IMG/VR virus record: IMGVR_UViG_3300043411_001841 | Coordinates: 1 to 32,566 of that record | Strand: one strand, 5' to 3' | DNA length: 32,566 nucleotides | Source of the DNA: a virus | In this document: piece after piece, positions 128 through 24,588 of the stretch | Position numbering within the stretch: position 1 is the first letter of the stretch | Layout of the letters: each line of letters begins with the position of its first letter | Position numbers and translations under genes: made by a program | The notes under the pieces: generated by a model | Databases searched by the model: none | What the model was told of the DNA's origin: nothing | Seen by the model: only the letters and a program-made list of their open reading frames with translations

Positions 128-749
128 CTCGGACTAAATACTCACCAATTTCTATCTGATCTCTCCACTCAGCATCCCCACCTTTAAGCCCCCAATAATT
201 TAAGACAGCTCTTTTCCAGAAAGGATGACAGAATGCCCAGAACTTTAGCAGTCCTGATCTTTTAGCCACGCAGATGATTTGATTTTGTTCCCCGTGGGGT
301 CTGATTAATGTGGAGTAAAGAATATCTAGGATTTGCCATGGGTAACCGATGAGTCCGAACCAGTACATCCACCATACTTTAGCGCAGAGGATGTAATGAA
401 AATAGGCACCTGGAGCTAAAATGTCCCAGTTAGGACAGAATCCAGTCCAGTATTGTTTATCCCAGTGGATAAGAAGTAGTCGTGAGTTACCAGAGTAATA
501 GAGACCAGAGGCTAAGCACATAAGTTGGTCCCTTGAAAAGTTACCAGGTTCATTCCAAGTCTTTTGTGGTTTTGGGCATCTTACAAAACCATCTTTAGTA
601 TAATGTGAAACAATACACTTTTGATCAATTTCACTATAAAATGTAGACATTATACCAGAGCTTCTAGACGCATCACCAAAGTCTAGATATGTAGGATCAT
701 TAGGATCATGTTGGCCAATAATATTTGTTTCCTTATCTCTAACAATCAT
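105..749 (-). CDS. Hypothetical protein, Trp/Tyr-rich
   Basis: Protein of about 214 residues that I do not recognise. It is unusually rich in Trp and Tyr in its middle (WDKQYWTGFCPNWD, then YHYILCAKVWWMYWFGLIGYPW-type stretches), which could be a membrane-associated or compact globular segment; several Cys are scattered through it. The end is acidic (EIEDDIK). I prefer the ATG at 749 because GGAG lies just upstream and it overlaps the end of the HNH gene by about 10 bases; an ATG at 764 is the alternative. Its stop overlaps the start of the RusA-like gene on the circular map, so it belongs to the leftward recombination operon. Function unknown. Confidence 0.75.
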   Translation of the reverse strand: MIVRDKETNIIGQHDPNDPTYLDFGDASRSSGIMSTFYSEIDQKCIVSHYTKDGFVRCPKPQKTWNEPGNFSRDQLMCLASGLYYSGNSRLLLIHWDKQYWTGFCPNWDILAPGAYFHYILCAKVWWMYWFGLIGYPWQILDILYSTLIRPHGEQNQIICVAKRSGLLKFWAFCHPFWKRAVLNYWGLKGGDAEWRDQIEIGEYLVREIEDDIK

Positions 750-1773
750 TTCTCCAACCCTCATTGTTATATGTAAAATCAAATTTATTAAATTTCTTTA
801 CATTTTCATTACATGATAAGTATTGAAGATTCCATGGAACATGTAAACCACAAATATTTTTACTAGATAATGGAATAATATGATCTACGTGATAATGTTC
901 AGGACAATTATTGTAAATTTCAATTATTTTGTTTCTATCTACCCAATTAGGAGATGATTTTCTTTTTATTGCTCTTCGGAACGAAGCCTTTATTCTTTCT
1001 TTCAAAATATTTTCTTTTTTTAAACGTAACTCTTTTCTTCTTAATTTTAATTTCTCTTTGTTCCCATCTTTTTCTTTAAATTTATTTTGATAATTACGAC
1101 GGATCTCTTTTTGTTTTTCTATTGGAAGATCTTTAATTAAAATTTTATTTTTTGTATCTTCAAAATCTTTATTTAAAATATATTTTTTATAATGGATACT
1201 ACACAAATTTCTTGTTTTTTTATTATCCGTACAATCTTTTATATAACATAATATGTTTTTATCATCATGATTTTCTTTAAATAATATATTTTTATTATTT
1301 AAATTTGTTTTTATAAATATAATATTTTTTTCATATCTTGAAATTAGTCTTTTTTGTGTTTTATTTCTTAAACATCCACAATGATTTTTTTTATATTTAC
1401 TAAAATTATATTCTTTTAAGCTTCCACATACACACAAACATAAATATTTTTTATATGATGATGGTATAGCTTCCTTGATTTCAAGATGTCCAACTTTTTC
1501 TCCAATTTTAAATTTATTTAAAAAACTATTATTATTTATAGCATACTTCTTATTACTATAAAATTTATCATTAGATAATAGTAATTCAATTTTTTTACAT
1601 CCACAGCTCTTAGTATGACCATTTAATAATTTTTGAGCTTTTAATTCTTTAATATTTCCACATACACATTCGCATATATATTTATATTGGTTTGATTTTC
1701 CAAAATCCTTAGTTTTTGATAAAACTTTCCAAAAAGAAAAGATTTTCCCGTCTAAAGAAAAATATTTTGACAA
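739..1773 (-). CDS. HNH homing endonuclease with zinc-binding repeats
   Basis: About 344 residues. The N-terminal half has two zinc-finger-like units seen in phage HNH homing enzymes: a CECVCG...SCGC unit and a second CLCVCG...HCGC unit. A third Cys/His cluster (CYIKDC...CSIHY) follows, then a very Lys-rich linker. The C terminus carries the HNH nuclease core HVDHIIPLSSKNICGLHVPWNL, written here in two parts: HVDHIIPL and then GLHVPWNLQYL. Start choice: the frame is open to an ATG at 1872, but that ATG has no ribosome site, whereas the TTG at 1773 is preceded by GGAGG five to six bases upstream and gives the usual short lead into the first zinc unit. The gene is far more AT-rich than its neighbours and sits as an insertion between two small operon genes, as expected for a mobile endonuclease gene. 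Confidence 0.88.
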   Translation of the reverse strand: MSKYFSLDGKIFSFWKVLSKTKDFGKSNQYKYICECVCGNIKELKAQKLLNGHTKSCGCKKIELLLSNDKFYSNKKYAINNNSFLNKFKIGEKVGHLEIKEAIPSSYKKYLCLCVCGSLKEYNFSKYKKNHCGCLRNKTQKRLISRYEKNIIFIKTNLNNKNILFKENHDDKNILCYIKDCTDNKKTRNLCSIHYKKYILNKDFEDTKNKILIKDLPIEKQKEIRRNYQNKFKEKDGNKEKLKLRRKELRLKKENILKERIKASFRRAIKRKSSPNWVDRNKIIEIYNNCPEHYHVDHIIPLSSKNICGLHVPWNLQYLSCNENVKKFNKFDFTYNNEGWRNDC

Positions 1774-1790
1774 AATCCCCTCCAAAAAGG

Positions 1791-1871
1791 TGGGCCAGAG
1801 TGAAGCTCTTTTAACCAATTTGTCTTTCAAAGGATGCCACATCAACGACGTTACTTTTCCACTCTGGCCCA
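1791..1871 (-). promoter_or_regulatory. 12-bp inverted repeat upstream of the HNH gene
   Basis: TGGGCCAGAGTG at 1791-1802 is the exact reverse complement of CACTCTGGCCCA at 1860-1871, with 57 bases between. It is G+C-rich in an AT-rich stretch. In the leftward mRNA it would form a stem ending just before the GGAGG of the HNH gene. It could protect or silence the endonuclease message, be a protein-binding site, or mark an insertion boundary. The repeat is seen directly; the role is inferred. Confidence 0.6.
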
Positions 1872-1893
1872 TAGTTAGTTTAGTTACTTGGGA

Positions 1894-4457: not shown

Positions 4458-4688
4458 ATGGAAAAAAGTAGACTGTCTAATTTTATAGCTCTCAAATCCC
4501 ATGCTTGGTTAAAAAGATTATTTATTAAGCTTAATAAAAAAGAGTTAGAGCTCTGTTATAATTTTATAAAAAGTACTTATGAGGACTCAAATAACGAATA
4601 TGCTTCAAAAGTAAACAGAATGTTTCTAGATAAGGAAAAACCCAAGTCTTGGAAAGAGATACAGGAGTTATTGCTTTGTTCTATTTAG
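4458..4688 (+). CDS. Small basic helical protein, unknown
   Basis: 76 residues, Lys-rich and mostly helical in appearance (AWLKRLFIKLNKKELELCYNF, split here as AWLKRLFIKL and NKKELELCYNF). No family recognised. The ribosome site is weak: GGAG is about 14 bases before the ATG. It is the only ORF on this strand between the structured region and the virion operon, and its 3' end overlaps the end of the convergent glycosyltransferase gene by eight bases, so the two transcripts are partly antisense. A real gene is likely but not certain. Confidence 0.5.
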   Translation: MEKSRLSNFIALKSHAWLKRLFIKLNKKELELCYNFIKSTYEDSNNEYASKVNRMFLDKEKPKSWKEIQELLLCSI

Positions 4689-5541
4689 AGTATTTGATCT
4701 CTTCTCTTAAAATCATAGGGTAAGTGAAGTCTTTCTCAATCCGGTGATGGATCCTTTTGTTCTTACTTCCCATATCATGTACATAGACACTTGAGGGGTG
4801 ATACATAACTGAGTAGAAACTCTTTACGTAAGTACCGAGCTCTAAGTAGATAGTAGTAAGCCCACCGTCATTTTGCTGTGTCATCACCTGATTTAACTGA
4901 ACTAAAGTGCTAGTAAAGCAAAGGTGTCCTCTAGAACCGTTAAGGACATACATGTTAACGTCTTCATTTATGAGTCCATAGAAATAGAAAGGTCTTTCTG
5001 TTTTACAAAAGAAGGAGTTCATGACTTTTCTAGTAAACATTATTTTTTTAGCATAATTATTACCAGCTCCTCCTATAAAGTCCCCACCTTGAGCAAAAGC
5101 GAGTGTGTCGGTATTTGTATTCATCATAAATTCTAGGTAAATAGAAAAAACCCTATCAATGTTTTTAATAACTTTACGTTTAAAGAGATCATTTTTATCT
5201 GAAGTATACGAGAAAGCTGTATAATCATCGTCTAAGACTAAGAAGTAATCGTATCCTAACTCATTAGCTATCTCATGAGTCATGTTTCTAGCATAAACGA
5301 CTGCCTTAGGGTTTCTAGTATTGTCGGCACTGTCGGTAAGGTCTATGGCCTTATCTTTATTGAAAATATATATTTTATCATTAGGATAATTCTTCTTATA
5401 CTCATCAGCAGTCTTATCGGTATCATCTAGAACTAATACGATATCACCCGTGTAATTAGATTTTCTTAGCGTCTCAACGGTATAGACACGATCTGCTCTT
5501 TTATGAGTTAGAATAAAACAAGCAAATCTATTCTTCGTCAT
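4681..5541 (-). CDS. Glycosyltransferase, probably TET-associated (TAGT)-like, DNA base modification candidate
   Basis: 286 residues. N terminus: FILTHKRADRVYTVETLRKS then YTGDIVLVLDDTDKT, a nucleotide-sugar-binding start typical of GT-A folds. Residues about 80-92 read VVYARNMTHEIA, and LVLDDDYTAF (D104-D106) is the likely metal-binding DxD motif. Further conserved-looking parts are DFIGGAGNNYAKK, FYFYGLINEDVNMYV and the final HHRIEKDFTYPM. From memory this arrangement fits the phage TET-associated glycosyltransferase (TAGT) family, proposed to put sugars on modified bases in phage DNA. The ATG overlaps the end of the ParB-like gene by 14 bases, so the two are co-translated. No TET/JBP oxidase, hydroxymethylase or thymidylate synthase-like gene is visible in this genome, so the acceptor base is unclear. 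A surface-glycan or protein target is the alternative. Confidence 0.75.
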   Translation of the reverse strand: MTKNRFACFILTHKRADRVYTVETLRKSNYTGDIVLVLDDTDKTADEYKKNYPNDKIYIFNKDKAIDLTDSADNTRNPKAVVYARNMTHEIANELGYDYFLVLDDDYTAFSYTSDKNDLFKRKVIKNIDRVFSIYLEFMMNTNTDTLAFAQGGDFIGGAGNNYAKKIMFTRKVMNSFFCKTERPFYFYGLINEDVNMYVLNGSRGHLCFTSTLVQLNQVMTQQNDGGLTTIYLELGTYVKSFYSVMYHPSSVYVHDMGSKNKRIHHRIEKDFTYPMILREEIKYSK

Positions 5542-12547: not shown

Positions 12548-14759
12548 ATGGCTGCTGCAAATACAACTTCCACATTAGACGGTCTCTTTAGAGTGTAACT
12601 TTAGAAGAGGTGAGGTGAAACCCCTCAGTGTACAAATACACTAAAAGTTTGTGAATTTCTGGAACCCGAAACAAGTAAAGTTGTCGGCAATCAGAAGCCA
12701 AGACCTGAAATATGGTAAGGTTCAACGACTAGACATTTTATATACATTCTTGATGCCAAAGGCGGTTAGAAGGTGATTATGACAAGGAAAGATAAGCGAT
12801 CAATGCTTTTATCTTTAGTTATCGGAGATGGATGTTTGCATTATATAAAGAGCAATCATCGAACTTATGGGGGACTCCACGTTGGTCATTCGTCTGATCA
12901 AGCAGATTACTTAGCTTGGAAAGCGAATTTAGTAAGCACCATACTAGGACGTACGATTAAGTTGAGAACTGGTAATAACCGTGGATTTGAAGGGTATGAG
13001 TCTAAACCATTCATACAATTTCAAGCTTCATGGATAAGATTTAAAGCATGGAGAAAGTTTATTTATCCCAATGGGAAAAAGGATAAATCTAGGATTCTTA
13101 GATTTATTAATAATCCAGAGTTTTTGATGTCTATATGGCTTATGGATGACGGTTACGTCGAAGGTAAGATAGATAAAAAATATAATAAATGCTACTCAGC
13201 AAGTTTGCGCATTTTTATATCAGATCAGAGACTAGAGTCTTGTTTAAGTATACAAGATTGGATTACTAAGAATTTTAATTTTGTGACTATTTTAAAGTAC
13301 CAGAAGTCACGAGAGAAAATTCATCCTTTTTTAAAGATAAACGCACAAGATAGTTTATTAATTTGGGATAAAATTCGAGAATTTGTTTTGCAGTTTAAAA
13401 GTATGCAACACAAGTTCCGATTCCTTGAAATGAGATACCAATATAAGAAGTCACTAGCGCAAACTAAGGAGATAACACTCCCGAATGATATAGTCTGCAC
13501 CGATAGAAATATTGGATAAAGCGAAAGTAGTTTACGGTGAGGGTCCTATCAATGCGATCCCCGAAGTAAGCATTCTTCAACAAAAAATTAAGTTTGAAAA
13601 AGCTAACAAAATCGGAAAAAGCTACAACTTCCCTGTTATCTTAACAAACGAAGCTGGCGTAACTTATTTGGCTGCTGGAGCTGGTGTATCTACACTTAAC
13701 GACTCTATCGCTGCTCAATTAAAAGAAGCTTCAGTTGATGCAAACCAAATCATTATCCGTGGACAAATGGACTATGAAGCAGCTGCTAAAGCGACAGGTT
13801 CTAAAGAGGCGTTTAAATCAGCATCTGAATTGTTGGTAATGAACATCCAAGAAACTGCTTCTCGACGTTTAGAAATGGCTTTCTTATACGGTCAATCAGC
13901 AACTGGTCTTGGAACTGCTGACTCTTCTGTAAACGCATCTGCTACATCTACTGTAGTAACTATGCTTGCAGCGGGTTGGGCTCCTGGAATTTGGGCCGGA
14001 AGCGAATCAGCACTCGTGTCGTTCTACAAAGTATCTGATGATTCTTTAGTTTCCTCTGGATCAGATGCAGTATTCACAGTAACTGCCGTAGACTTTGTTA
14101 ACCACAAACTCACTTTCACTGGAACAGCTACTGGAATCACAGCTCTTGATATCGCTCTTGCCGCTGGTGATTGTTACATCCACTTTAAAGGTGCTAAAAC
14201 TGCTGAACCCGTAGGGATAGACAAGATTGTAACTAATGCGGGCACCTTGTTCGGAATTTCGGCTGCAACCTACTCACTCTGGTCAGGTTCTAGCTACGGT
14301 TTCGGTTCTGCTGCTGCAACTACTGCCAAGCTTTTAAATATGGCTGGTTACGCAGTTTCTAAAGGTGGATTGATGGGTGAGGCTGACATTTACTTGTCTC
14401 CTAAAACTTTCATGAACCTTTCTGGAACTATGACTGATCTTCGTCGTCAAAATGGCGGACAAAAAGAAACTGAAGGAATTGCCGGATTCGAATCCATCAC
14501 TTTGATGGGTCCTAACGGTAAATTAAACCTTGTTCCTCATCCTATGGTTAAGGAAGGTGAATGTTTCCTTATCCCAGTAAAACAATTCCGAAGAATTGGT
14601 TCTCAAGAGTTCAGCTTCCAGACTCCTGGTCGCAAAGACGAATTGTTCTTACACATTCCTGATAAGAATGCTTACGAACTTCGTTTGTACAGTGCACAAG
14701 CCCTTGTTTGCTTGAAGCCTGCTCAATGCGTTAAGGGTCATTCAATAACCAATAGCTGA
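12548..14759 (+). CDS. Major capsid protein, split by a group I intron (exons 12548-12589 and 13524-14759)
   Basis: Exon 1 gives MAAANTTSTLDGLF and exon 2 continues KVVYGEGPINAIPE, together a normal N terminus for this class of podovirus capsid protein (DGLFK-VYG). The joined product is 425 residues. The rest fits an HK97-type capsid: ETASRRLEMAFLYGQ near the spine helix, a large central insertion rich in Ala/Thr/Ser, and a C-terminal part ending ALVCLKPAQCVKGHSI. Without splicing, exon 1 would run into a stop three codons later. Exon 2 also has an in-frame TTG at 13512 inside the intron end, which would be mistaken for the start. Codon use is less AT-rich than the intron, as expected for a highly expressed gene. 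Confidence 0.9.
12590..13523 (+). ncRNA. Group I intron in the capsid gene, IA-like
   Basis: Core features seen by eye: P1 pairs exon CTCTTT with GAAGAG, putting a U-G wobble at the 5' splice site after 12589. P10 pairs exon 2 AAAGT with ACTTT just 5' of the P1 strand. P2 is TGAGG/CCTCA, then a GTGTA/TACAC hairpin. P5 is CCGAACAA-like pairing with TTGTCGG. GGTTCAACGACTAGAC is the typical P6-P7 region, and GATATAGTCT (near 13488) is its P7 partner. P9 is CCGATA-GAAA-TATTGG (13500-13515) with a GNRA loop. The intron ends in G at 13523. The endonuclease ORF sits between the two P7 strands, in P8. Layout resembles T4 td-type introns. Confidence 0.88.
12779..13519 (+). CDS. LAGLIDADG homing endonuclease in the intron
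   Basis: About 246 residues with two LAGLIDADG-type motifs, so a single chain: LLSLVIGDGCL (residues about 10-20) and LMSIWLMDDGYV (about 117-128); each has the acidic active-site residue. Typical flanking features are GGLHVGHSSDQADYLAWKAN and YQKSREKIHPFLKIN. The ATG at 12779 has AGAAGG upstream; a GTG at 12773 is an alternative. The reading frame continues over the intron's 3' core (P7 and P9) and stops four bases before the splice site, so coding and ribozyme sequence overlap. It probably cuts intronless capsid genes to spread the intron. Confidence 0.93.
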   Translation: MTRKDKRSMLLSLVIGDGCLHYIKSNHRTYGGLHVGHSSDQADYLAWKANLVSTILGRTIKLRTGNNRGFEGYESKPFIQFQASWIRFKAWRKFIYPNGKKDKSRILRFINNPEFLMSIWLMDDGYVEGKIDKKYNKCYSASLRIFISDQRLESCLSIQDWITKNFNFVTILKYQKSREKIHPFLKINAQDSLLIWDKIREFVLQFKSMQHKFRFLEMRYQYKKSLAQTKEITLPNDIVCTDRNIG

Positions 14760-14796: not shown

Positions 14797-14832
14797 AGAC
14801 ATACACACCTATTAAAAGAGGTGTGTATGTCT
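14797..14832 (+). promoter_or_regulatory. 14-bp hairpin covering the GIY-YIG gene start
   Basis: AGACATACACACCT (14797-14810) and AGGTGTGTATGTCT (14819-14832) are perfect complements around an eight-base loop. The right arm contains the AGGTG ribosome site and the ATG at 14827. In long read-through mRNA it would block translation of the endonuclease; a shorter transcript starting inside would free it, as known for T4 I-TevI. It could also slow or end capsid transcripts. The hairpin is seen directly, the control is inferred. Confidence 0.7.
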
Positions 14833-15570
14833 AAGCTTGGGTTTGTTTATAAAATAACTAATTTAAAAAATGGTAAAATTTATGTTGGTGCAACATTAAA
14901 TATTAATAGAAGAATAGGGAAACATAAACATATGTCTTTATCAGGTAAGAGCAATAGTTTGCTTCATATAGATATGAGAAAGTATGGTTTTGATTCCTTT
15001 AGAACAGAAGTAATTGAGTGTTGCACAGAAGAAGATTATTTAAAAAAAGAAATATTTTATATAAATTCTTTAAAAACATATGAACCCTTTGGCTACAATT
15101 ATAGATTAACAAGCGGATCAGAGTCAGTTCAGCTTGGTAAGACAAAATCTATTCAAGTTTTTAGTATTTCTAATAAAAAGATATCAACTTATAATTCAAT
15201 ATCTGATTTTTCAAGATATGCAGAATGCACAATAGGAGCTGTTACTCTTGCAATTAATAAAAAAAGAATCCTGTATGGGAAGTATATAATTAAATATCTA
15301 TCTGATAAAAAATCATTTGAGGATATTATAAGAGAAATTGAGATTAAGAAATCTAATGAATACTTGCATGATTCATTAGTCAGACAAGGAAGAGTTCCTC
15401 ACAATATTAAAAAAGTTAAATTAATAAATAAAGAGTCAAAAGAAGAGTTAGTATTTGATTCAGTTACAAAAGCCGCAGAATATTTAAAGAGACAGTCTAC
15501 TAATGTTTCCTTTGCCTGTGATAAAAAAGGTAGGGTTGTAGGCGGACACCTTGCAGAATATATGGAGTAA
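14827..15570 (+). CDS. GIY-YIG homing endonuclease 1
   Basis: About 247 residues. GIY-YIG core: FVYKITNLKNGKIYVGATLN, catalytic Arg in INRRIGKHK, and Glu near FRTEVIE. Then comes an intron-encoded-nuclease repeat domain (IENR/NUMOD type) twice: IQVFSISNKKISTYNSISDF with YGKYIIKYL, and a C-terminal copy VFDSVTKAAEYLKRQSTNVS. ATG at 14827 is preferred over GTG at 14821. It is free-standing between capsid and fibre genes; its last codons supply the GGAG ribosome site of the fibre gene. AT-rich compared with its neighbours. Confidence 0.9.
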   Translation: MSKLGFVYKITNLKNGKIYVGATLNINRRIGKHKHMSLSGKSNSLLHIDMRKYGFDSFRTEVIECCTEEDYLKKEIFYINSLKTYEPFGYNYRLTSGSESVQLGKTKSIQVFSISNKKISTYNSISDFSRYAECTIGAVTLAINKKRILYGKYIIKYLSDKKSFEDIIREIEIKKSNEYLHDSLVRQGRVPHNIKKVKLINKESKEELVFDSVTKAAEYLKRQSTNVSFACDKKGRVVGGHLAEYME

Positions 15571-18718: not shown

Positions 18719-21186
18719 TGAGTCAGAAACTACTTCTTAAAATTAAAGGTTTAGCAACAAATCAAAACCAATTGAGTGAAGTAGTCGATGGTTCATTAAG
18801 TGTTGCTAAAAACATTGTGGTTGATAAGGACTCAGTGGGTGAAAGTCGTCGTGGTCTTGGATTCTTTGATCCTAATATAGGGGTTGAAGATGCGAGAGTT
18901 GATCGGATTACAACTTACAAGAATGCTTTAGTAATACATCGCTCTGATAATGATAGCCTAAGTTCATACGAAGGCGGTTGGACTGATTATGATGGAACCT
19001 TTTCACATCCGGATGCTGATTATGCAAGAATGCGATTTGTACAAGCTAGCGGCAATTTGTATTTTACTACTAGTCTTGGTGTCAATGTTCTAGATAATAT
19101 CTCTGGTCCTGTTTACTCGACTGGAATGCCTGCTGGACTTGATGGTTCTGGAGTTACCACTGGTGCAAGTGGATTCATGACAACTAATACTCAAGTTGCC
19201 TACAGAATTGTTTGGGGAAGCAGGGACTTTAATAACAATCTTTATCTCGGAGTTCCTTCCCAGCGTATTATTGTTGCTAACTCTTCTGGTGGGACAAGAG
19301 ATGTTTCTCTTACATTTACCATCCCAGTGGGAATTACTGTAAATGATTTTTATCAGATCTATCGCTCAAAGGAGTCTGCAACTTCGACTGATGAGCCGAA
19401 CGATGAGCTCCAATTAGTATATGAGAATAACCCTACAGCGGGTGAGATCACAGCTAAGAGCATTACTCATACTGATTCAACTCCTACATCTTTGATGGGT
19501 GCTTCGTTGTATACCAATGCAAGCCAAGAGGGAATCAGTGAGGCTAATGAACAACCTCCTCAAGCTAAAGACATTTCAGAGTTTAAGGGATTCATGTTTT
19601 ATGCAAACGTGCAGAATAAGCATAACATCACGATTAACTTACTTAGCGTTGGAGGAGCCGGTCTAGTTGCCGATGATACCATTACAATTAACAGTGTTGT
19701 TTACACAGCTAAGGCTACTGAGACTGTAGCTTCAGCACAGTTTAAAGTTTCAACTGGTGGGTCTGCAGCACAGAATATTGAGGACACAGCTAAGAGCTTA
19801 GTTAAGGTCATAAACCAGTACTCTTCAAATACCTCAATCTATGCTTACTATGAGAGCGGATATCAGGATCTTCCTGGTATTATCTTGTTAGAGAAAAGAA
19901 CCATAGATGGAACAGTCTTTAATGTGACTGCGAGTAGAGCTCTTGCATGGGATTTAAACGATGGTGAGAGTAACAACGAAGCTTACATCAATGGTCTCAT
20001 GTGGAGTAAGATTCAACAGCCTGAACACGTTCCCATTTCTCATCTAGAATACATTGGTTCTAAGAACTATGCCATTAGAAGGATCATTGCTTTAAGGGAT
20101 TCTTTGTTTGTTCTTAAAGACGATGGAGTATTCAGAGTTACTGGACAGAATGGTCAATGGAGTATTGATCCTCTTGATACCTCTACAAAGATCATAGCTC
20201 CTGATAGTGCAGTGGTAGTTAACAACCAAATTTACTGTTTATCTGACCAAGGGGTTGTTGCTATTAGTGATGTTGGGGTCGAGGTTAAATCACGGCCTAT
20301 TGAAAATAAGATTCAAGAATTGATCTCTGAGAATTACACTAATTTAAAAACATTAAGCTTTGGTATCAATTACGAGACTGATCGAAAGTTTATTTTATTC
20401 ACCATTAAAGATGCTGGTGATCTGCATTGTACTCAAGCTCTTGTTTACAACACATTCACAGACTCTTGGACTACATGGGAGAAGGATGTTGTTCACGGGA
20501 TTGTTAATGTGAATGATGATCGTCTTTACTTAGCTCATGCAAGCTCTCAGAATATCTATCAAGAGAGAAAAGACTTCTTATTCACCGATTATGTTGATGA
20601 GATTTACACAGGTTACACGATGACATCACACTCTGGTTCGAGTGTTGTTTTAGATTCTTTACTAAATGTTGAGATTGGTGATGTTATTTATGAAACCAAC
20701 GTCAAATATTCAATTATTAATAGCATTGATCCAGCAACTAGTACGGTTGTTGTTGATTCAACTATTGCATGGTCTGATACTAGTATTTCTATTTTAAAAG
20801 CCATAGATTGTGAGATAGAATTCACAAATCAGCCCCTAGAAAACGCTGGGATAATGAAACATTTCCAAGAAGTGGCATGGCTTTTTCGAGATAAGGCATT
20901 CAATACTGCGGCAAGTTCATTTTATACTGATCTTAGTGGTGGGTATTCAGAGACTACAATTAACGGGACATTTGGATCAGACCTTTGGGGAGCTTTTCAG
21001 TGGGGAAGTGGACCATGGGGAGGTATTCAAAGACCTAAACCTATTAGATGTACAGTTCCAAGAGAGAAGTCTAGGGGTTCTTTGTTGAGCATTAGATTTA
21101 GAGTTAAGAATGCCTATGCAAAGTGGTCTTTGAATGGGGTTAGTGTTCAATTTGAATACGTATCTGAAAGAATGACGAGGCAGTAA
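18718..21186 (+). CDS. Tail nozzle/hub protein, beta-propeller (P22 gp10/T7 gp12-like)
   Basis: 822 residues, almost all beta. It has propeller-like blades such as LRDSLFVLKDDGVFRVTG, VVVNNQIYCLSDQGVVAIS and VYNTFTDSWTTWEKDVVHGI, and AYRIVWGSRDFNNNLYLG near residue 160. This arrangement is characteristic of podovirus nozzle proteins. Start at the ATG of the TAATG overlap; the upstream GTG at 18709 is unlikely. The stop is again in a TAATG, which now opens into the second GIY-YIG gene. Confidence 0.82.
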   Translation: MSQKLLLKIKGLATNQNQLSEVVDGSLSVAKNIVVDKDSVGESRRGLGFFDPNIGVEDARVDRITTYKNALVIHRSDNDSLSSYEGGWTDYDGTFSHPDADYARMRFVQASGNLYFTTSLGVNVLDNISGPVYSTGMPAGLDGSGVTTGASGFMTTNTQVAYRIVWGSRDFNNNLYLGVPSQRIIVANSSGGTRDVSLTFTIPVGITVNDFYQIYRSKESATSTDEPNDELQLVYENNPTAGEITAKSITHTDSTPTSLMGASLYTNASQEGISEANEQPPQAKDISEFKGFMFYANVQNKHNITINLLSVGGAGLVADDTITINSVVYTAKATETVASAQFKVSTGGSAAQNIEDTAKSLVKVINQYSSNTSIYAYYESGYQDLPGIILLEKRTIDGTVFNVTASRALAWDLNDGESNNEAYINGLMWSKIQQPEHVPISHLEYIGSKNYAIRRIIALRDSLFVLKDDGVFRVTGQNGQWSIDPLDTSTKIIAPDSAVVVNNQIYCLSDQGVVAISDVGVEVKSRPIENKIQELISENYTNLKTLSFGINYETDRKFILFTIKDAGDLHCTQALVYNTFTDSWTTWEKDVVHGIVNVNDDRLYLAHASSQNIYQERKDFLFTDYVDEIYTGYTMTSHSGSSVVLDSLLNVEIGDVIYETNVKYSIINSIDPATSTVVVDSTIAWSDTSISILKAIDCEIEFTNQPLENAGIMKHFQEVAWLFRDKAFNTAASSFYTDLSGGYSETTINGTFGSDLWGAFQWGSGPWGGIQRPKPIRCTVPREKSRGSLLSIRFRVKNAYAKWSLNGVSVQFEYVSERMTRQ

Positions 21187-21236
21187 TGGATAGACAAGTA
21201 TTTATGTCCAATGTAGATATCCAATATGGAGATTTT
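21186..21236 (+). other. Possible orphan 5' end of an interrupted virion gene
   Basis: The ATG at 21186 sits in the same TAATG coupling used throughout the virion operon and opens 17 codons (MDRQVFMSNVDIQYGDF) that run in frame into the GIY-YIG ORF. The GIY-YIG gene has its own GGAG and ATG at 21237. This stretch may be the original start of the gene now beginning at 21967, cut off by endonuclease insertion, or just a leader. Confidence 0.35.
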
Positions 21237-21977
21237 ATGTTGAAAAAATATTATGTTTATACGCACTCCTGTAAAAAAACAGGAAAAGTAATTTATGTCG
21301 GATCAGGTAATGAAAAAAGACCTTATGATTTACAAAATAGAAGCTACAAAAATTGGATAAAAGAAAATGGATCCCCTGAAGTTAATATTATCAAAGAATT
21401 CTATGATAAAAATGAATCACTAATCTTTGAAAAAGAATTAACATTAAAGTTAAAAGAAAATAATGAAGCTATTTTCAATGAACGCAATGGAAATTATTGG
21501 GATGAAAATAATAAGTTAAAACTTAAAATAATTCATACTGGTAAGAAACTAACGGATGAGTGGAAAGAAAATATTAGATTATCTCATTTAGGAGAAAAAA
21601 ATCATTTTTTTGGAAAAAAACACAACGAAGAAACGAAAAAAATAATATCTGAAAAAATTAAAGAGTTACACAAATATTCATCGTTTAGACTGGGTAAGAA
21701 ACATACAGTTGAGAGTAAAAATAAAATGTCAATTAGTCAGAGGAAAAGTATGACTAAAGAACGTATTATGAAAATGTCTAAAGCACGTATTGGGAAAAAA
21801 CCAGCAAATATAAAAAAGGTTATTTGTTTAAATACTGGTATTATTTATGAATCAACCTGGGAAGCATCAAAAATGACTGGATGTTCACAGTCTAAAATAT
21901 CAGAAGTATGTAATAATGTTCATAAAGAAACAAAAAAACATATTTTTAGGTATTATGAGGTAAAAAATGAAAATTAA
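21237..21977 (+). CDS. GIY-YIG homing endonuclease 2
   Basis: 246 residues. GIY-YIG core: YYVYTHSCKKTGKVIYVGSG with Arg in EKRPYDLQNRS. Then NUMOD3-like DNA-binding repeats (LGEKNHFFGKKHNEETKK; LGKKHTVESKNKMS; ARIGKKPANIKK) and a final IENR1-type segment (VICLNTGIIYESTWEASKM). Start chosen for GGAG five bases upstream. The end overlaps the next gene by 11 bases and contains its GAGG ribosome site. AT-rich and Lys-rich compared with neighbours. It probably cuts uninvaded alleles at this site. Confidence 0.9.
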   Translation: MLKKYYVYTHSCKKTGKVIYVGSGNEKRPYDLQNRSYKNWIKENGSPEVNIIKEFYDKNESLIFEKELTLKLKENNEAIFNERNGNYWDENNKLKLKIIHTGKKLTDEWKENIRLSHLGEKNHFFGKKHNEETKKIISEKIKELHKYSSFRLGKKHTVESKNKMSISQRKSMTKERIMKMSKARIGKKPANIKKVICLNTGIIYESTWEASKMTGCSQSKISEVCNNVHKETKKHIFRYYEVKNEN

Positions 21978-23781: not shown

Positions 23782-24588
23782 ATGGGTTGGAGTATGAATA
23801 AGGGTATTGCATGGATTTACAAGATCACTTGTTTGTCTACTCATAAATTTTATATAGGTAAATGTGAACAATCACGTCTTAAGGATCGATTTGATAAACA
23901 CAAGTCTGAGTTAAATAGAAACGTACATTTTAATAGATATTTACAAAAAGCATGGAATAAATATGGAAAATCTAATTTTATATTTGAATCTATAGATTTT
24001 GTAGAAAAAAATTCTGATCATAATATTAATGAACTAGAAATCTATTGGATTAATAAATTAAGATCCAACAATAAGGACATTGGTTATAACTTAACCTCAG
24101 GAGGGAATGGAGGTTTATCACCTTCAGAAGAAACACGATTGAAACTTTCTTTAGCAAGCAAAAAAAACTTCTTAGAAAATCCAAAAGGACATTTTAAGAA
24201 AGGACAGACTGCTTGGAACAAAGGTATTCCAAGAACTGAAGTAGAGAAAAAAGAGCATTCTGAAAAAATGAAAGGAATATCTGCTTGGAATAAAGGATTG
24301 AAAAATGTACAAGTAGCATGGAACAAAGGTATTATAACAAGTGATTCAACTAAATTAAAACAATCCTTGGCAAAAAAAGGAAAACAAAGTGGATCTAAAG
24401 GTTATTCAAAGCACTCATACATTATAATAAATGAAAAAACAAAAGAGCAAAACACGTTTGAAAATGCTTACTTTTTAGCTAACTTTCTTGGAACAACTTA
24501 TTCAAGTATAAAAAATAAGATTAGACGAAAAAATCCATTAATTCTGGAAAAATATCAGATTAATGAAATTAAAAATGGAGGTTTATAA
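23782..24588 (+). CDS. GIY-YIG homing endonuclease 3
   Basis: 268 residues. GIY-YIG core: WIYKITCLSTHKFYIGKC, catalytic Arg in LKDRFDKHKSEL, and a conserved YNLTSGGNGG after ELEIYWINKLRS. NUMOD3-type repeats follow (FKKGQTAWNKGIPRTEVEKK; SAWNKGLKN; VAWNKGI), with three copies of AWNKG, then a C-terminal IENR1-like segment (NTFENAYFLANFLGTTYSS). Free-standing between two ejection-protein genes; the TAATG at its end links to the next gene. Confidence 0.92.
   Translation: MGWSMNKGIAWIYKITCLSTHKFYIGKCEQSRLKDRFDKHKSELNRNVHFNRYLQKAWNKYGKSNFIFESIDFVEKNSDHNINELEIYWINKLRSNNKDIGYNLTSGGNGGLSPSEETRLKLSLASKKNFLENPKGHFKKGQTAWNKGIPRTEVEKKEHSEKMKGISAWNKGLKNVQVAWNKGIITSDSTKLKQSLAKKGKQSGSKGYSKHSYIIINEKTKEQNTFENAYFLANFLGTTYSSIKNKIRRKNPLILEKYQINEIKNGGL

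Follow-up and report, generated by a model that had tools for sequence, protein, structure and literature searches.

We analyzed a single IMG/VR virus record of 32,566 bases from an uncultured phage (referred to below as the window) and compared it with related phages and with known introns. The reading in which we have high confidence is that the major capsid gene is split after codon 14 by a mobile group I intron with its own LAGLIDADG homing endonuclease gene, which would splice itself out of the RNA and spread by homing. Sequence comparison establishes the ribozyme anatomy, the empty sites, the family and fold of the enzyme, and the patchy occupancy of the site; we infer splicing, cleavage, homing, and translational control. 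An initial annotation had placed a group I intron at this position. Beyond that annotation, we found a site-specific family, distributed over distant phages, of which this intron is a member, as well as further introns in the capsid genes of several relatives.

Table 1. Coordinates of the interrupted capsid gene and its intron in the window
Feature	Position	Strand	Evidence
Capsid exon 1, 14 codons, MAAANTTSTLDGLF	12548..12589	+	ATG at 12548; N-terminus uninterrupted in 14 relatives
Group I intron, 934 bases, terminal G	12590..13523	+	RF00028; leave-window-out model; joined protein
Internal guide: ACUUU 12598-12602 (P10), GAAGAG 12604-12609 (P1)	12598..12609	+	Guide covaries with exon 1 in 11 introns
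P2 (12611-12615 with 12623-12627) and P2.1-like hairpin (12628-12632 with 12637-12641)	12611..12642	+	Read from sequence alone
5' core: P3 5' strand, P4, P5, P6, P6a, P7 5' strand GACUA 12727-12731	12646..12731	+	Pairing and compensatory changes in 11 introns
Conserved hairpin between P7 and P3'	12747..12773	+	Pair counts; single-sequence folds; RNAalifold without the window
LAGLIDADG homing endonuclease gene, 246 aa	12779..13519	+	PF03161; structure model; Foldseek
3' core within the ORF: P3' 13458-13465, P8 13468-13481, P7' UAGUC 13491-13495, P9 13500-13515	13458..13515	+	Pair counts
Capsid exon 2, 411 codons plus stop, KVVYGEGP...	13524..14759	+	phrog_14242; HK97-type fold

By predicted fold and gene order, the interrupted gene encodes an HK97-type major capsid protein. 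Exon 2 matches the PHROGs family phrog_14242, annotated 'major head protein' (E 1.4e-11), and it also matches SU10_MCP, below the curated cut-off. An AlphaFold model of middling confidence (pLDDT 75.8) resembles the HK97-type capsids of Pa223, VP1, and SU10, and the gene is located downstream of portal and scaffold-like genes. Joining base 12589 to base 13524 gives MAAANTTSTLDGLF^KVVYGEGP and a protein of 425 amino acids. Among 15 capsid relatives in viral contigs, 14 (12 of them distinct, since L010/L011 and L013/L014 are near-identical pairs) have no interruption at the junction. Empty-site relatives read [SAT]T[LM]DG[LNM]F-K[IVT][VI]YG across it, and the joined window protein, ..TLDGLF^KVVYG, agrees with them, as expected from the initial proposal that splicing restores LF-KVVYG. 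The junction is also uninterrupted in L002, where ATC replaces the ATG start codon of the others. The fifteenth relative, L006, has an intron at the identical site, and its exon 1 differs from that of the window by five synonymous and two amino-acid-changing codons. The sole capsid match in the annotated phage collection, Silvanigrella phage CP017838 (23% identity), lacks this intron.

The segment between capsid codons 14 and 15 has the anatomy of a group I intron. CUCUUU, the final six bases of exon 1, forms the exon strand of P1, in which 12584-12589 pair with 12604-12609 (6/6 pairs) and a U.G pair lies at the splice site. P10 joins 12598-12602 to 13524-13528 (5/5 pairs), and G13523 is the last base of the intron. 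The core is completed by P3 (12646-12653 with 13458-13465, 8/8 pairs), P7 (12727-12731 with 13491-13495), P8 (13468-13471 with 13478-13481), and P9 (13500-13505 with 13510-13515). When P1, P3, P4, P5, P6, P6a, P7, P8, and P9 were placed by hand, all 43 window pairs were standard. These helices fit the splice sites that had been derived earlier from P1, P10, P7, P9, and the terminal G.

Searches with the enzyme and with a seven-sequence alignment yielded 11 distinct homologues in IMG/VR, every one of them in a group I intron that occupies this capsid site; the capsids of nine distant carriers are about 30-39% identical to that of the window where compared. Together with 13 distinct empty sites, these 11 occupied sites form our comparative set. 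In all 11 introns, a U precedes the intron and a G ends it, and the guide sequence follows each phage's own exon 1, such that P1 retains 65 of 66 pairs despite varied exon ends (CUCUUU, UUGUUU, AACUUU, AUGUUU, and others). L022 and L034 have TTC rather than TTT as the Phe codon, and their introns lie 1 nt earlier, so that exon 1 still ends in U. P3, whose two strands flank most or all of the ORF, retains 78 of 88 pairs, while P4 (66/66) and P6a (33/33) are fully paired. We observed compensatory changes in P3, P4, P5, P6, and P6a; P7 is invariant and therefore offers no covariation. P10 is complete in the window and weak or absent in L023 and L028. In L022 (3826-4719), the P3/P4 region has been rewritten, with P4 reading UUAGGU/ACCUAG instead of UUGCUG/CAGCAG, and every P4 pair is kept.

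For these counts, we picked helix strands by eye and counted them strand by strand, because MAFFT shifted P3' by one to two columns when run on concatenated cores. Choosing strands by eye can inflate pairing; therefore, we ran a test in which the position of P1 was free and a covariance model from which the window was left out. In permutation tests, including the one with free P1 position, the observed values for P1 and P3 were never reached. RNAalifold, applied to nine relatives without the window and L022, recovered the same P4, P5, P6, and P6a and the hairpin listed in Table 1. The covariance model, built from nine relatives with the window and L022 left out, scored 97.3 bits (E 1.4e-21) on the window and 61.7 bits on L022, and it had no match in the 12 relatives lacking this intron; the E-values of so small a model are rough. 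The assignment of 12590-13523 as a group I intron at codon 14 is confirmed, and its boundaries, the enzyme family, the host gene, and the ORF's overlap with the 3' ribozyme core likewise withstood independent testing. The general group I model, which the initial annotation had suggested as a check, gave a mixed outcome: Rfam Intron_gpI (RF00028) gave 36.5 bits for 12580-12861 (E 5.9e-6 when the whole window is searched), less than its cut-off of 50 bits, which is a curation threshold and not a defining feature of group I introns. At the curated threshold there is thus no Rfam match in the window, and the match appears at lower thresholds, probably because the ORF splits the core. A second segment, 13484-13514, matches weakly (13.1 bits). 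Homologous introns score similarly, with L018, L020, and L019 at 37-46 bits and L032 at 51.6 bits. With Rfam hits accepted up to E <= 1, the window showed no other group I intron, and we dismissed a group II intron match (21 bits, E 8) as noise.

The ORF within the intron most likely begins at ATG 12779, preceded by a Shine-Dalgarno sequence (AGAAGG, 12768-12773); GTG 12773 is a less likely start. Its product matches PF03161 (E 3.9e-10) as a two-motif LAGLIDADG_2 protein, and the acidic positions of the motifs IGDG and MDDG are invariant in an alignment of seven homologues. Foldseek matched the enzyme model (pLDDT 87.9) to I-SceI and I-WcaI at E about 1e-8, which indicates an I-SceI-like fold. 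I-SceI comes from the yeast mitochondrial LSU rRNA. The window enzyme shares the monomeric two-motif LAGLIDADG fold with I-SceI (PDB 1r7m, 5a0m) and I-WcaI (6x1j), at 14-18% identity. By its motifs and modeled fold, the product is an intact-looking LAGLIDADG homing endonuclease with predicted cleavage activity; PHROGs contains no family for it.

The ORF starts downstream of the hairpin located after P7, and its last part contains P3', P8, P7', and P9, in line with the earlier observation that the LAGLIDADG frame covers the 3' ribozyme core; in other family members, the stop codon comes earlier. The hairpin (12747-12773) retains 33/33 inner and 32/33 outer pairs over the 11 introns, with compensatory changes. 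By location it may correspond to P7.1/P7.2 of IA introns, which are extra elements between P7 and P3'; a single conserved hairpin occupies that interval here. The 3' strand holds the start of the Shine-Dalgarno sequence, paired as UCC/GGA or, in the window and L006, as UCU/AGA. By analogy with I-TevI (PMC2988022), this hairpin may hold back translation of the endonuclease and so spare the core from ribosomes, because ribosomes moving along the ORF would unwind P3', P8, P7', and P9.

The same overlap could be read in the opposite way if the intron needs its LAGLIDADG protein as a maturase, in which case splicing would be tied to ORF translation instead of being impeded by it. LAGLIDADG maturases do exist, including that of the bacterial Thermotoga neapolitana 23S intron (PMC3984707), and two maturases, bI3 and I-AniI, appear among the fold matches, ranked below I-SceI. 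However, all standard core helices are fully paired in the window, so no RNA element seems to be missing, the aligned homologues retain both acidic motifs as expected of an endonuclease, and the L034 frame lacks the usual N-terminus, yet its intron core is retained. Overall, we consider dependence on a maturase unlikely.

Far less probable is the idea that splicing does not occur and that capsid translation restarts at an in-frame TTG at 13512 (MDKAKVVYG...), leaving exon 1 as a relic. In L006, too, an ATG in frame lies 21 bases upstream of exon 2, but no Shine-Dalgarno-like stretch lies upstream of 13512. The exon 1 protein sequence is kept, with mostly synonymous changes, exon 1 and guide covary in 11 introns, and relatives show a normal N-terminus without a restart; on these grounds, we rejected it. 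Because the window comes from one virus record assembled from a metagenome, two contigs might have been misjoined during assembly, but the chance of this is negligible: L006, which is a different record, carries this intron at the identical position and has an enzyme 68-69% identical to that of the window, and nine more distant introns share the site and structure. An intein is rejected because the unspliced exon 1 frame reaches a stop two codons past 12589, so the insert is not in frame with the host protein.

On the capsid tree, the window groups with four intron-less phages (100/99), with L006 outside this group, and a clade of the window and L006 is rejected (p-AU 0.0018). At least four gains or losses of the intron are needed on this tree, on which L036 (occupied) and L043 (empty) are sisters. 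The enzyme tree is resolved for the window and L006 only and is too poor to be compared with the capsid tree. This patchy occupancy, as seen in collections that are biased and in loci that came from pattern-seeded searches, agrees with homing combined with loss; an old intron that was lost repeatedly could by itself also yield such a pattern. Scanning bacterial and archaeal genomes with the enzyme returned only kin at 21-28% identity (L038, L039, L040, and L041), which lie within or next to 23S rRNA genes in Patescibacteria MAGs; three of these four loci have group I introns that reach the gathering score.

Other inserts are present in and around these capsid genes. Additional downstream inserts were detected in the capsid genes of L018 (Rfam 109.6 bits), L032 (98.8 bits), and L020 (30 bits, with a GIY-YIG frame), and interrupted capsid homology points to more in L019, L022, L028 (two more), L036, and L043. 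Two to three successive inserts occupy the N-terminal part of the capsid gene in L028 (1192-3448), L032 (2802-5713), and L018 (3815-5105), some with GIY-YIG frames and some without an ORF. Directly behind the capsid stop, the window has a GIY-YIG homing endonuclease-like frame (14821-15570), and frames with a GIY-YIG-like start occupy the same place in L006 (5318-6136) and L018 (6370-7224); the capsid gene is thus flanked as well as invaded. Elsewhere in the window, we found three more homing endonuclease-like frames at 21186-21977, 23782-24588, and 739-1872 (minus strand), of NUMOD3/I-TevI-type, GIY-YIG, and HNH-like character. A frame at 4681-5541 (minus strand) matches a beta-glucosyl-HMC-alpha-glucosyltransferase (phrog_842, E 3.4e-64), and from this match the phage may have glucosylated modified bases. 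A search for relatives of the ORF at 108-653 found none.

Introns in capsid genes, phage introns with LAGLIDADG enzymes, and hairpins that hold a Shine-Dalgarno sequence have each been described before. The initial annotation had singled out a virion gene as the target; the HK97-type fold upholds the capsid identity, but insertion into a virion gene is not new (PMC3706429, PMC7886860). A capsid-gene intron has been cited for Tuc2009 (PMC3706429), and splicing of the capsid-gene group I intron of mycobacteriophage LittleE was demonstrated by RT-PCR and N-terminal sequencing (PMC3706429). As in LittleE, the window combines a group I intron and a homing endonuclease gene in the major capsid gene with close relatives that have empty alleles; however, the LittleE enzyme is of the HNH family and is transcribed in the opposite direction, and the insertion lies far into the gene, whereas the window has a LAGLIDADG enzyme in the same direction at codon 14. 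The crAss-like phages of the Delta and Zeta groups have group I introns in their MCP genes, with up to four inserts per gene and an MCP in five fragments (PMC7886860), so capsid genes are recurrent targets of several inserts there too; these phages belong to a different order, and we draw the likeness at the level of the gene rather than of insertion sites or enzyme families. Reviews assign phage homing enzymes mostly to the HNH and GIY-YIG families (PMC3943268, PMC3984707). The LAGLIDADG_2 intron in the Nitunavirus DNA polymerase (PMC11878797) likewise pairs a phage group I intron and this enzyme domain, but it interrupts a replication gene and is a lone case among mostly HNH enzymes. In the T4 td intron with I-TevI (PMC2988022), a Shine-Dalgarno sequence is likewise within a hairpin and the end of the ORF overlaps the ribozyme core; unlike the window, T4 td has a GIY-YIG enzyme in the thymidylate synthase gene. 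The T4 hairpin is tied to a late promoter. In the papers searched, we found no description of LAGLIDADG introns that form a family bound to a single capsid site in distant phages; one may still be published.

In the mechanism that we propose, the ribozyme would fold in the mRNA through the P3/P7 pseudoknot, P4-P6, P8, and P9. With P1 holding U12589, free guanosine would attack after this base; the freed exon 1 would then attack after G13523, with P10 holding exon 2, and LF-KVVYG would be joined. In co-infecting phages whose capsid allele lacks the intron, the endonuclease would cleave the conserved TLDGLF^K site, and the intron would be copied in when the break is repaired from the allele that carries it. 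The hairpin with the Shine-Dalgarno sequence probably limits translation of the enzyme.

The capsid gene is essential and presumably highly expressed. A broader reading, which we regard as doubtful, is that a long-lived intron lineage has specialized on one capsid site across deeply diverged phages, with the guide tracking host codons even through a 1-nt slide, a ribozyme hairpin coupling endonuclease synthesis to splicing of the capsid mRNA, and the multi-intron capsid gene being a regulated locus rather than a mere victim. For annotation, gene callers may put the capsid start at TTG 13512 and miss the true N-terminus, and the same error will affect related phages with two to three inserts in the capsid gene. 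The 11 occupied and 13 empty sites provide a compact set for asking how a guide and an endonuclease track a drifting coding target.
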